The notes below the pieces were generated by a model. It was given only the letters and a program-made list of their open reading frames with translations. It had not been told where the DNA came from and did not search any database. This document shows positions 50,663 through 54,170 of a DNA stretch of 64,000 nt, in pieces. How positions within the stretch are numbered: the stretch's first letter is position 1; every line of letters starts with the position of its first letter. The stretch spans positions 1 to 64,000 of the forward strand of contig NZ_JACIDR010000006.1 of the NCBI RefSeq assembly GCF_014196425.1, read 5' to 3'. Both the position numbers and the translations under genes were made by a program. The stretch comes from Hansschlegelia beijingensis. Its GTDB lineage: Bacteria; Pseudomonadota; Alphaproteobacteria; Rhizobiales; Methylopilaceae.

Positions 50663-51913
50663 ATGGCGAACGATGAGCCCAGCGTCGGAAGCTCCGGCGG
50701 CAATCCCACGGTCGCGGCGCTGATCTGCGCCGCCGGCGCCGGCGCGCGGACCGGCTTCGCGGAGCCGAAGCAGTATCGCGATCTCGGCGGCGGACAGCCG
50801 ATGCTGACCGAGACGGCGCGCGTTTTCCTCGCGCATCCGCGCATCGCGCATCTGCGAATCGTCATAGGCGAAGGTCAGCTCGGCCGCTACGAGGAAGCGA
50901 TCGCGCCGCTGCGCGGCTCCCGCAAGCTCGGGCCGCCCGCGACCGGCGGCGCGACCCGGCAGGCCTCGGTGCGCGCCGGGCTCGCGGCCCTCGCCGGGAC
51001 GCCGCCGGACATCGTCCTGATCCATGACGCGGCGCGGCCATTCGCCAGCGCCGCGCTGATCGAGCGCGCGATCGAGGCCGCCGCGGCGACCGGCGGCGCG
51101 ACGCCGGGCGCGCCGGTCACGGACACGATCTGCTTCGTCACAGACACGGGCGCCCGCGGCGAAACCCTCGACCGCGCAAGGGCCCGGCTGCTGCAGACCC
51201 CGCAGGCCTTCCGCTACGCGGAGCTCGTCGCGGCGCATGAGCGCGCGGCCGCGGAAGGCCGCGACGATTTCACGGATGACGGCGCGCTGTTCGCGTGGGC
51301 CGGGCACGAGGTGGCGATGTTCGACGGCGAGGCCCGCAACGTGAAGCTGACGACGCCGGACCAGTTCGACGACGCGCTGCTGCGGCGCGCGGGCGCGGCC
51401 TTCCTGGCCCAGGGCGACCTGCGGACCGGCTCGGGCTTCGACGTGCACGCCTTCGGCCCGGGCGACCACGTCATGCTGGGCGGCGTGCGGGTGCCGCATG
51501 AATTCGGCCTCGTCGGCCATTCGGACGCGGACGTCGCGCTCCATGCGCTGACGGACGCGATCCTCGGCGCGCTCGCCGACGGCGACATCGGCGCGCATTT
51601 CCCGCCTTCCGATCCGGCCTGGAAGGGCGCGGCCTCCGACCAGTTCATGGCCGACGCCGTGCGCCGCGTGCGGGCGGCCGGCGGCGCGGTGGCGCATCTC
51701 GATCTCACCATCATCGGGGAATCGCCCAAGATCGGCCCGCACCGCGAGGCGATCCGGACCAGGATCGCGGAGATCGCCGGGATGCCGCTCGGGCGCGTCG
51801 CCGTGAAGGCGACCACCACCGAGCGGCTGGGATTCGCAGGCCGGCGCGAGGGCCTGGCGGCGCTCGCCTCCGCCACCATCCGCCTGCCGTTCCGCGAGGG
51901 CTTCGAGCCGTGA
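50663..51913 (+). CDS. ispDF: Bifunctional IspD/IspF isoprenoid enzyme
   Basis: The fused enzyme performs two steps of the MEP pathway: IspD makes CDP-ME and IspF makes MEcPP. The 416-residue product begins at ATG 50663. IspD occupies about 1-245 ([37 protein letters not shown]-type [23 protein letters not shown]). IspF follows ([91 protein letters not shown]). The fusion is usual in alphaproteobacteria. The stop overlaps the next start by four bases. Confidence 0.96.
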
Positions 51914-52413
51914 CCCGGACCGTCTACGAACTGGCCGAGGAGGCGCTCAGGCTCGCGCGCGGCGCGGGGCTGACGATCACGACCGCCGAATCCTGCACGG
52001 GCGGGCTGGTCGCGGGCGCGCTGACCGAGGTGCCGGGCTCGTCGGACGCCTTCGACCGCGGCTTCGTGACCTATTCGAACGCCGCCAAGACCGCGCTGCT
52101 CGGCGTGCCCGAGGCGCTGCTGGCGGAGCACGGCGCGGTCAGCGAGGCGGTCGCGCGGGCGATGGCCGAGGGCGCGCTCGAAGCCGCCGGGGCCGGCGTC
52201 TCGGTCGCCGTCACGGGCGTCGCGGGGCCCGGCGGCGGCTCGGAGGCGAAGCCCGTCGGGCTGGTGCATTTCGCGGCCGCCGGACGCGGGCGGCCGACGC
52301 TGCGCCGCGAGCGCCGTTTCGGCGATCTCGGCCGTTCGGAGGTCAGGCGCCGCTCGGTGATCGAAGCGCTGACGCTGCTCTGCGAGGCGCTCGGCGCCGA
52401 AGCCGCGGCGTAA
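51910..52413 (+). CDS. pncC: CinA-C domain protein, nicotinamide-nucleotide amidohydrolase
   Basis: PncC converts NMN to nicotinate mononucleotide in pyridine-nucleotide salvage. The 167-residue single-domain product has the signature [20 protein letters not shown] with catalytic Ser, [20 protein letters not shown], the [16 protein letters not shown] helix and [20 protein letters not shown]. Translation starts at GTG within the ispDF stop. The linkage ispDF-pncC is common in Rhizobiales. It ends facing the repeat array. Confidence 0.93.
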
Positions 52414-52454
52414 GACGCCGTCCCTGCAACAAGCCGTCACTGCAACAAGAAGCC

Positions 52455-53662
52455 GTCATCCTCCGGCTTGACCGGAGGATCCATCCCGGGCGTCGGGCGC
52501 GGGAGCGGCGTGGATGGTCCGGTCAAGCCGGACCATGACGGGCCGTCAGGGACACGAAACACACTCGGCATCCTCCGGCCTGACCGGACGATCCAGTTCG
52601 GGCGTCGGGCGCTGGAGCGACATGGATGGTCCGGTCAAGCCGGACCATGACGAGCCCTCCGGGACACGAGCCACTCTCGTCATCCTCCGGCCTGACCGGA
52701 GGATCCACCTCGGGCGTCGGGCGCTGGAGCGACATGGATGGTCCGGTCAAGCCGGACCATGACGAGCCCTCCGGGACACGAGCCACCCTCGTCATCCTCC
52801 GGCTTGACCGGAGGATCCATCCCGGGCGTCGGGCGCGGGAGCGACATGGATGGTCCGGTCGAGCCGGACCATGACGAGCCCTCCGGGACACGAGCCACCC
52901 TCGTCATCCTCCGGCTTGACCGGAGGATCCATCCCGGGCGTCGGGCGCGCGATCGGCGTGGATGGTCCGGTCGAGCCGGACCATGACGGGCCCTCCGGGA
53001 CACGAGCCACCCTCGTCATCCTCCGGCTTGACCGGAGGATCCATCCCGGGCGTCGGGCGGGCCATCGGCGTGGATGGTCCGGTCGAGCCGGACCATGACG
53101 AGCCCTGCGAGACACGAACCACCCTCGTCATCCTCCGGCCTGACCGGAGGATCCACCTCGGGCGTCGGGCGCGGGAGCGGCGTGGATGGTCCGGTCGAGC
53201 CGGACCATGACGAGCCCTCCGGGGCACGAACCACCCTCGTCATCCTCCGGCTTGACCGGAGTATCCAGTTCGGGCGTCGGGCGCGGGAGCGGCGTGGATG
53301 GTCCGGTCGAGCCGGACCATGACGAGCCCTGCGAGACACGAACCACCCTCGTCATCCTCCGGCTTGACCGGAGGATCCATCCCGGGCGTCGGGCGCTGGA
53401 GCGGCGTGGATGGTCCGGTCGAGCCGGACCATGACGAGCCCTCCGGGGCACGAACCACACGCGTCATCCTCCGGCCTGACCGGAGGATCCACCTCGGGCC
53501 TCGGGCGCGGGAGCGGCGTGGATGGTCCGGTCGAGCCGGACCATGACGAGCCCTCCGGGGCACGAAGCACCCTCGTCATCCTCCGGCTTGACCGGAGGAT
53601 CCATCCCGGGCGTCGGGCGCGCGATCGGCGTGGATGGTCCGGTCCAGCCGGACCATGACGGG
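52455..53662. repeat. Tandem array of eleven 112-bp units, each with two head-to-head hairpins
   Basis: Units begin (at CATCCTCC) at 52458, 52569, 52681, 52793, 52905, 53017, 53129, 53241, 53353, 53465 and 53577; the period is 112 except 111 for the first. Each unit holds hairpin A (ATCCTCCGG, loop CTTGA or CCTGA, CCGGAGGAT) and, after about 33 bases, hairpin B (ATGGTCCGG, loop TCAAG, TCGAG or TCCAG, CCGGACCAT), then about 27 bases of spacer. B is the inverse of A with a compensated CC/GG exchange. Outer ends GTCAT and ATGAC are also inverted. Units vary in blocks rather than at random. Open frames in all phases arise because the period is not a multiple of three; nothing suggests they are translated. 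The array separates convergent pncC and nusB. Confidence 0.95.
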
Positions 53663-53705
53663 CGTTCCGGAGCGGCAGGCTTCGGGCCAGCCGAGGACCG
53701 GCGGC

Positions 53706-54170
53706 TCAGCCCTGCTTCTCGAAGTCCCCGGCGCGCACCGTGCGGGCGATCGCGTCCAGCACGGCGTTGATCATGCCGGCCTCGTCGCGATCGAGGAAGG
53801 CGTGGGCGATGTCCACATACTCGGTGATCACCACCTTCACGGGGACGTCCTTGCGCTTGCCGAGCTCGAACGCGCCGGAGCGCAGGATGGCGCGCATGAT
53901 CGCCTCGACGCGCTTCAGCGGCCAGCCGGCCTGCAGCGTCTTGTCGATCAGCGGGTCGAGCGCGCGCTGCTCCTTGAGCACGCCCGTCACCAGGTCGCGG
54001 AAGAAGGCGGCCTCGGCCGGCTTGTACTCCTCGCCGTCGACCTCCTGGCCGAGCCAGTGCGACTCGAACTGCGCCAGCGTGTCCGGCAGCGGCGTGCCGG
54101 CGAGATCCATCTGATAAAGCGCCTGCACGGCTGCGAGCCGAGCGGCCGAGCGCTTTTCGCCCTTGGCCAA
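53706..54170 (-). CDS. nusB: Transcription antitermination factor NusB
   Basis: NusB binds boxA RNA with NusE in rRNA antitermination. The 154-residue all-helical product shows RSAARLAAVQALYQMDLAGT, FRDLVTGVLKEQRALDPLI, WPLKRVEAIMRAILRSGAFE and VVITEYVDIAHAFLDRDEAG, then MINAVLDAIARTVR, all standard. It follows ribH by three bases, the widely conserved ribH-nusB pair, and is the last gene of the rib operon before the repeat array. Confidence 0.96.
   Translation of the reverse strand: MAKGEKRSAARLAAVQALYQMDLAGTPLPDTLAQFESHWLGQEVDGEEYKPAEAAFFRDLVTGVLKEQRALDPLIDKTLQAGWPLKRVEAIMRAILRSGAFELGKRKDVPVKVVITEYVDIAHAFLDRDEAGMINAVLDAIARTVRAGDFEKQG

Follow-up and report, generated by a model that had tools for sequence, protein, structure and literature searches.

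A tandem array of CGTC-tagged REP heterodimers in Hansschlegelia beijingensis and a possible link of such repeats to GIY-YIG nucleases

Repetitive extragenic palindromes (REPs) that carry the tag CGTC have stems of 8-9 bp nearly always starting with AT, loops of 4-5 nt, and a CCA tail (PMC3733652). They are mostly intergenic head-to-head dimers, often of unlike partners, found mainly in alpha-proteobacteria, where all orders contain them, and as dRS3 in Neisseria; grouped elements are rare, with Neisseria and Wolbachia as the exceptions (PMC3733652). The same study concluded that CGTC REPs "apparently lack a dedicated transposase" and left their mover open, and it relates that, in other bacteria, GTAG REPs are the proposed targets of RAYTs. 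Here we describe an array of eleven tandem CGTC-REP dimers between the convergent genes cinA and nusB of Hansschlegelia beijingensis, located in a 64-kb window (the whole stretch of DNA analysed; 68.6% G+C). Taken alone, the array adds a large and well-formed case to a class of repeats already known and serves mainly as a striking illustration; of real interest is the association of such hairpins with genes for small GIY-YIG nucleases. With a confidence somewhat above even, we favor the reading that the array is an amplified CGTC-REP heterodimer plus approximately 25 bp, that such dimers are relatives of GIY-YIG gene-bearing elements in the manner of miniature inverted-repeat transposable elements (MITEs), and that cutting by the GIY-YIG nuclease followed by repair spreads the repeats.

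In every feature tested the array dimers belong to the CGTC-tagged REPs, family CGTC-3. Their hairpins have an unpaired CGTC tag, a 9-bp stem starting with AT, a 5-nt loop and a CCA tail; they are part of a dispersed multicopy family that forms mostly head-to-head dimers in the same genome, and pairing is kept despite change of the stem sequence. The described CGTC-3 repeats (PMC3733652) share tag, stem, loop, tail, head-to-head heterodimers, intergenic position and the absence of an adjoining RAYT gene, and the difference lies in the eleven tandem units found here. A first-pass annotation of this DNA had correctly recognized an architecture like that of REPs and BIMEs, but had taken GTCAT for a substitute of the usual head tetranucleotide. 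It is the tag of the CGTC superfamily (PMC3733652) followed by the AT of the stem, and thus no odd replacement. The GTAG or GTGG head of the GTAG REP (REPIN-RAYT) class is not present in the array, whose tag is CGTC.

In the REPIN-RAYT system, an inverted REP pair is the dispersed unit and is accompanied by a dedicated enzyme gene. That enzyme is a Y1 HUH transposase, whereas the candidate proposed here is a GIY-YIG nuclease. At SMAG locus XII of Stenotrophomonas maltophilia, a 72-bp dimer plus 31 bp is repeated in tandem, with a copy number that varies among strains (Roscetto 2008, PMC2613905). SMAG arrays likewise consist of a dimer with flanking DNA in tandem, but their tag is GTAG instead of CGTC. 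The array in H. beijingensis is likely a variable-number locus. In shape it also resembles BIME-2 of Escherichia coli, with alternating inverted REPs in tandem. However, the REPs of BIME-2 are of the GTAG type, and gyrase cleavage has been demonstrated for BIME-2 (PMC6379681). Closer in tag is dRS3 of Neisseria, listed as CGTC-1 (PMC3733652), and a GIY-YIG homologue of N. gonorrhoeae lies between such hairpins; dRS3 differs by shorter stems, large mosaic clusters and its additional role as a target of prophage Nf1 (PMC3898611). Br-REP1 of Bradyrhizobium (PMC5082802) is comparable in that its palindromes occupy overlapping 3' untranslated regions of convergent genes at ~200 sites and are seen in RNA reads, but its consensus is CCGGAATCTCGAGATTCCGG, and the accessible passages of that article contain no tandem array.

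The array between cinA and nusB

The eleven 112-bp units reported in the first-pass annotation are confirmed: the array extends from 52454 to 53660, with a start-to-start spacing of exactly 112 bp. Tandem Repeats Finder reports this interval with period 112, 10.8 copies, 92% matches and a score of 1980; the top row outside the array in the same window scores 83. With up to 2 mismatches, the pattern GTCATNNTCCGG-N5-CCGGANNATCCA has exactly 22 matches in the whole window, every one inside the array, and none in 100 shuffled windows. Each unit is an 87-bp head-to-head heterodimer (hairpin A, a 27-bp spacer, hairpin B and the tags) plus a linker of ~25 bp, and the gaps from A to B and from B to the next A are both 27 bp if the tag bases are counted in. 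On the plus strand, hairpin A reads GTC AT CCTCCGG, a 5-nt loop and CCGGAGG AT CCA; on the minus strand, hairpin B reads GTC AT GGTCCGG, a loop and CCGGACC AT CCA. The partners differ by the reported CC/GG exchange that leaves pairing intact, but no such change is seen to happen within the array. Conservation of pairing, also claimed earlier, holds for the 20 of 22 stems that are perfect, among them all 11 B stems, but not for the A hairpins of units 2 and 8, each of which has one broken pair. In unit 2 this is accompanied by a changed head, CGGC, and the other 21 hairpins have the CGTC tag. The complementarity of the A and B loops had been listed as an observation of its own, but B is an inverted element of the same sort as A, and complementary loops result from this.

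The array occupies the gap between two genes directed at it, 42 and 47 bp from the stop codons of cinA and nusB, respectively. The features are as follows (window coordinates).

52454..53660, no strand: tandem array, 11 x 112 bp, of head-to-head CGTC-REP heterodimers and linkers
52455..52483, plus: hairpin A of unit 1 (stem ATCCTCCGG, 5-nt loop, tail CCA)
52511..52539, minus: hairpin B of unit 1 (stem ATGGTCCGG, 5-nt loop, tail CCA)
52567..52595, plus: hairpin A of unit 2 (head GGCAT; one broken stem pair)
52623..52651, minus: hairpin B of unit 2
52679..52707, plus: hairpin A of unit 3
52735..52763, minus: hairpin B of unit 3
52791..52819, plus: hairpin A of unit 4
52847..52875, minus: hairpin B of unit 4
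52903..52931, plus: hairpin A of unit 5
52959..52987, minus: hairpin B of unit 5
53015..53043, plus: hairpin A of unit 6
53071..53099, minus: hairpin B of unit 6
53127..53155, plus: hairpin A of unit 7
53183..53211, minus: hairpin B of unit 7
53239..53267, plus: hairpin A of unit 8 (one broken stem pair)
53295..53323, minus: hairpin B of unit 8
53351..53379, plus: hairpin A of unit 9
53407..53435, minus: hairpin B of unit 9
53463..53491, plus: hairpin A of unit 10
53519..53547, minus: hairpin B of unit 10
53575..53603, plus: hairpin A of unit 11
53631..53659, minus: hairpin B of unit 11 (final hairpin)
53660..53685, no strand: right flank resembled by the linker consensus
51910..52413, plus: cinA, left neighbor, directed at the array (Pfam CinA, 2.2e-53)
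53706..54170, minus: nusB, right neighbor, directed at the array (Pfam NusB, 9.1e-31)

Among the units, 3/48 non-loop hairpin columns are variable, as compared to 21/53 columns of spacer (11/27) and linker (10/26, units 1-10) taken together (Fisher 1.1e-4). Selection, correction within a hairpin, or conversion from copies elsewhere would each lower hairpin variation, and the data do not separate them. The linker consensus agrees with the right flank at 8/12 positions over the first 12 nt (a value reached by 0.9% of random places) and at 12/26 over the whole 26 nt (reached by 3.5%). Such likeness is expected if the dimer and some of its right-hand flank were duplicated together, of which the comparison is suggestive only. 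Rfam gave a single chance-level match to the array (E 0.57), and a scan of the array region revealed no sigma-70-like promoters. Overlapping open reading frames of ~107 aa in rotating frames on the minus strand (52523-53563) could surface as spurious small proteins in annotations. A coding repeat on this strand was considered and rejected: 112 is no multiple of 3 and the frames merely rotate, which argues that the array is not coding.

Copies in the genome and order, and exchange at shared sites

A search for the A/B pair found named matches in Hansschlegelia and Methylopila (5 stretches). The loose pattern GTCAT..ATCCA matches the H. beijingensis genome (3.66 Mb, 12 contigs) 101 times, some of the matches not being palindromic, and the reversed pattern is a poor null because many of the matches listed in other genomes (for example G025) are not palindromic either. 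A covariance model, R1, with a 9-bp stem and a 5-nt loop was built from 21 hand-picked sequences and scored on at most 49 candidates per genome. R1 has 44 matches at E<=0.01 in the H. beijingensis genome and matches in 96 of 150 genomes of the order. Dimers were picked by their fixed GTCAT/ATCCA ends only, to avoid choosing them by pairing, and are present in 51 of these 150 genomes. Among the dimers listed (75 from 17 genomes, that of H. beijingensis not included), 1015 of 1050 inner pairs are Watson-Crick pairs, as compared to a mean of 65% with shuffled 3' arms and 79% (at most 83%) if shuffling is confined to genomes. Copies that preserve pairing exist genome-wide, which the first-pass annotation had proposed to check by covariance modelling.

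Heterodimers make up 53 of the same 75 dimers. Wobble pairs and A-C mismatches are about equally frequent (12 vs 11), but this count is uninformative on selection at the RNA level because a head-to-head dimer presents one element per orientation in any transcript. Differences between heterodimer partners are transversions in 71/103 cases (distinct types), as compared to 12/35 for unpaired stem cells (all cells; Fisher 5.5e-4), which hints at a choice of partners that do not pair mutually. When folded as single-stranded DNA, the heterodimer favors a single long hairpin interrupted by two internal loops (-31.6 kcal/mol); artificial pairs of the same partner reach -47.1 and -48.7 kcal/mol, and A and B alone -10.1 and -10.5 kcal/mol, respectively.

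In the stretches fetched from the H. beijingensis genome, 16/27 clusters of any CGTC type contain at least 2 elements and 11/27 a single one. A pattern of three alternating elements in close tandem matches 6 of 397 genomes of the order, with H. beijingensis in the lead (17) and G084 next (6). By this strict pattern, which does not cover other stem lengths and from which fragmented assemblies may hide arrays, the array is the largest of its kind among the 397 genomes. A 328-bp unit with a CGTC pair is also duplicated in tandem on contig C1 (L016:2253-2904), the third tandem amplification in this genome.

The array beside nusB was not seen in 12 other genomes of the genus, and the three-element tandem pattern has no match in the 11 of these that were covered. 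In four of them (G102, G157, G161, G162) cinA and nusB are adjacent without such an element; at this site G160 has a pair of a different CGTC type, and one A/B pair is present in G158, and in the six remaining genomes cinA is absent from the 1.5 kb beside nusB. A second site, the space between ffh and rpsP, contains by reading of L085-L097 a CGTC-type hairpin pair in 11/13 genus genomes, and these pairs are of at least 4 kinds. Rfam found nothing at gathering score in four of these loci. On a tree of NusB and RpsP (262 columns; 4 of 14 inner branches well supported), the hairpin type at this site, "none" included, changed at least 8 times among 16 labelled genomes of the family, and G155 and G129 have different types despite identical NusB and RpsP proteins. 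In G161 (L088), the 453 nt from the ffh-like end to rpsP contain no strong hairpin (z -0.8) in place of the CGTC pair.

Two of 20 repeat-bearing stretches of G155 align over 2 kb at 82-83% identity with repeat-bearing stretches of H. beijingensis, and three other pairs of stretches align weakly (65-75%). Both well-aligned sites keep a head-to-head dimer in which the two arms of each hairpin differ together, that is, compensated change with pairing kept outside the array. In the rplT-pheS space (L018:2406-2491, L064) both genomes have a CGTC dimer, and both hairpin arms are different. A nuclease that breaks DNA at REPs and allows them to be copied would produce exchange at occupied sites; ordinary recombination might do so too, and the intergenic stretch may have been exchanged horizontally as a whole.

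GIY-YIG genes between CGTC hairpins

The H. beijingensis genome contains a second array (C3:69414-70491; L023:2415-3492), in which four dimers of the A/B type with a 176-bp period are followed by a GIY-YIG gene and then by a fifth dimer. In one partner the stem bases AT..AT are replaced by GT..AC with pairing kept.

C3:70080-70376: GIY-YIG gene, 98 codons (98 aa), Pfam PF01541 GIY-YIG, 3.8e-12

This gene is the sole copy in the 864 kb of H. beijingensis sequence scanned (approximately a quarter of the genome). Its product has one match among solved structures (1zg2, 1.2e-4) and no family match in NCBIfam or PHROG. Residues Y19, G21, R29, E66 and N85 are invariant in 14 aligned homologues. By analogy with I-TevI, Y19, R29, E66 and N85 are presumably catalytic, and the pattern fits an active GIY-YIG site.

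A tblastn search of a plasmid collection gave 35 records, of which 20 were taken after near-duplicates and two others had been left out. Together with L023 and a locus of Methylopila capsulata (L012), these 22 loci were tested automatically for outward-pointing GTC tags, each directly followed by a hairpin, at up to 250 nt both to the left and to the right of the gene. Eleven of the 22 loci pass, among them 10 of the 20 plasmid loci, which represent 8 of 13 genera (Azospirillum, Neorhizobium, Neisseria, Aeromonas, Rhizobium, Shinella, Novosphingobium and Sphingobium). Random places in the H. beijingensis genome are flanked on both sides in 28/20,000 cases, positions in these loci that are not near the gene in 179/8,527, and other complete coding sequences in the 13 annotated loci in 0/29 (vs 11/22, Fisher 1.5e-5). 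Of 638 crudely called H. beijingensis genes 3 are flanked, one of which is the GIY-YIG gene. Three of the failing loci (S. meliloti, Shinella HZN7 and Planktothrix) have, by eye, slightly imperfect hairpins on both sides. In L012, by reading, the GIY-YIG homologue is located within a head-to-head pair of the long-loop CGTC type. Outside these counts, a homologue in Methylobacterium bullatum (L171) lies by eye between CCTCATCCTGAGG-type palindromes, and the association may thus reach beyond CGTC tags; a GIY-YIG gene of Radiobacillus, likewise not counted, adjoins a tRNA methyltransferase gene and has no palindromes by eye.

Several loci suggest that gene and hairpins are copied together. In S. 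meliloti (L125:1658-1837), an internal-deletion copy of a hairpin-GIY-hairpin element adjoins a full copy. The deletion copy aligns at its left end with the left hairpin and leader (93%, 45 bp) and at its right end with the final portion of the gene plus the right hairpin (93.5%, 139 bp), approximately the first 70% of the gene being gone. It thus retains the two ends of the element together with the 3' part of the gene, which indicates that in this case gene and hairpins were copied jointly. In Rhizobium CIAT894, gene-less dimers are arranged in tandem next to the gene. They are ~90% identical to the left and right ends of the gene-bearing element over 50-60 bp each, of which the hairpin accounts for about half or more and a leader or trailer of ~15-25 bp for the remainder. 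The gene-less units of both organisms look like internal-deletion copies of hairpin-GIY-hairpin elements, judging from these alignments. In Azospirillum lipoferum (L123:1870-2486), a GIY-YIG gene with a dimer on each side lies between sufB and sufC, which are 617 bp apart. The element is absent from A. ramasamyi, A. oryzae and Azospirillum sp. B510, where the space measures 87-129 bp and the flanks are 95.6-96.6% identical. Unclean junctions preclude any statement on a target-site duplication. A hairpin-GIY-hairpin unit in Shinella PSBB067 (L135) is also located between sufB and sufC, according to a reading of unannotated sequence.

Other enzymes were looked for. Y1 transposases of the RAYT or IS200 type (Y1_Tnp, PF01797) are absent from the H. 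beijingensis genome in a search that is positive in 5/14 named control genomes, and a RAYT was thus rejected as the enzyme of the array in this genome. PF01797 occurs in 1/18 genomes of the family, that one being <90% complete, and in 22/150 of the order; it is lacking in 76 of the 96 genomes with R1 matches and in 22 of the 30 with at least 40 matches. An IS110 or Piv-type recombinase, a guess made on account of the link between prophage Nf1 and dRS3, was rejected as well, being absent from the H. beijingensis genome and present in 3/13 genomes of the genus.

The term "GIY-YIG" does not occur in PMC3733652, and "palindrom" does not occur in the accessible text of a 2006 survey of GIY-YIG proteins (PMC1564403). 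In the titles and abstract starts listed, with subscription papers and preprints outside reach, no link of GIY-YIG proteins to REP, REPIN, RAYT or dRS3 was found, nor a REP link in the literature on GIY-YIG with UPF0213 or YhbQ. The terms "GIY-YIG" and "repetitive extragenic palindromic" do not occur together in any searchable paper, although the link may be in print elsewhere.

Proposed mechanism and alternatives

In the reading favored here, the autonomous unit would be an outward-tagged hairpin, a small GIY-YIG gene and an inverted hairpin, and internal deletion would convert it into a gene-less head-to-head dimer. The nuclease would nick or cut CGTC hairpins or the DNA close to them. If a REP-bearing copy then served as the template for repair, a REP or a REP-GIY unit could be placed in the break, which would account for both spread and exchange at occupied sites, and repeated cutting, or slippage across hairpins, might expand a dimer into an array. 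The action of the nuclease on the hairpins, the repair step and the origin of the array through the nuclease are what we infer from the arrangements described above. The functional interpretation of the association is finely balanced. We give equal weight to acceptance and rejection of a broader proposal, that CGTC REPs have their dedicated enzymes in small GIY-YIG nucleases and so make up a second REP system in addition to REPIN-RAYT, one that would extend from alpha-proteobacteria to Neisseria (dRS3) and other groups. The same even balance applies, jointly, to REP-GIY-REP units being autonomous, dimers their deletion derivatives, and arrays and site exchange by-products of homing-like repair. 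If true, bacterial genomes would have a second, unrelated route to REP-type repeats, based on an unrelated nuclease fold. Since the mover of CGTC REPs was left open (PMC3733652), a named candidate enzyme makes the question directly testable.

Several observations weigh against this reading. Half of the plasmid loci (10/20) failed the automatic test, and seven of the 20 do not show both-sided flanking: Photobacterium, Sinorhizobium C101 (palindromes with a different tag), R. tumorigenes, Rhizobium L51/94, Sphingomonas, Spirosoma and Sphingobium MM15 (right side only), with L51/94, Spirosoma and MM15 judged by the automatic test alone. Several of the loci are closely related to one another. L023 and L012 were found via their repeats and so lend no independent support, and L012 fails the automatic test, which does not see the long-loop type. 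The gene in H. beijingensis lies between dimers and not within one. When 50-kb stretches from four of these replicons were examined, only one contained hairpins of the type that flanks the GIY-YIG genes (Shinella, 2 copies). Dimers and GIY-YIG genes could also both collect in the same intergenic places. Finally, Y1-positive genomes have R1 matches more often than others (20/22 vs 76/128, Fisher 0.0036), an association that is not significant at thresholds of 5, 10, 20 and 30 matches and has p 0.047 at 40.

In an alternative reading, the GIY-YIG gene is a passenger or neighbor and, like the dimers, settles in tolerated intergenic slots, the repeats are static or moved otherwise, and the array arose by neutral replication slippage. 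Some homologue loci without hairpins are in line with this, as are slots like that between ffh and rpsP, which are reused by different REP subfamilies with no GIY-YIG gene in the stretch read, and the low variation of the array hairpins could stem from conversion alone. However, flanking by the same hairpin type on both sides is far above that of other genes in the same loci, and the S. meliloti deletion copy points to gene and hairpins having been copied together; we regard a mere passenger as rather unlikely. A little less doubtful is that the hairpins are kept as RNA structures at the 3' ends of the cinA and nusB transcripts, for exonuclease protection or termination, with the array as a stronger version. 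The position of the array between convergent genes, close to both stops, would agree with such a role, and one dimer folds as RNA with -58.3 kcal/mol (z -5.7) and a second with -52.7 kcal/mol (z -3.6); the reduced hairpin variation and the presence of hairpin pairs between ffh and rpsP in most genus genomes point in the same direction. Yet there is no T-rich tail, no intrinsic terminator was found in 52300-53800, and four relatives have no such element between cinA and nusB. The RNA 3'-end structure proposed in the first-pass annotation thus fits insofar as elements are often near gene 3' ends, but the expected enrichment between convergent genes is weak: 6 element clusters are in convergent, 3 in divergent and 16 in same-direction gaps and 2 are intragenic, as compared to 6, 14 and 32 other gaps >60 bp, counts that come from a crude gene caller and were judged without statistics. 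A structural role at mRNA 3' ends would be compatible with the dimers being relatives of GIY-YIG elements and may explain their persistence.

Three further explanations have far lower probabilities. By analogy with BIME-2, whose alternating inverted tandem hairpins the array resembles and in which gyrase cleavage sites are enriched (PMC6379681), it might be a site for gyrase or a nucleoid protein, but shape alone is shared while tag and stems differ, making this improbable. An artificial copy number is very improbable: the assembly is a draft, but artificial expansion would give exact copies, whereas units 1-10 are all mutually different (2-18 differences over 112 nt). The first-pass annotation had named an assembly artefact as a ground for refutation, and the differences among the units speak against it. 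Its suggestion of a REP transposase substrate has fared worst. REP-like dimers and the proposed action of RAYTs on GTAG REPs (PMC3733652) would make it conceivable, but the distribution of PF01797 described above largely refutes it here, and we give it hardly any credence.

At L017, L019, L025, L026 and L033 the dimers are of a different type, whose stems measure 7-10 bp (GCCCGC and longer). The spacers of this type start with CGACTT and end with AAGTCG, and the inner ends of the pair are thus complementary.

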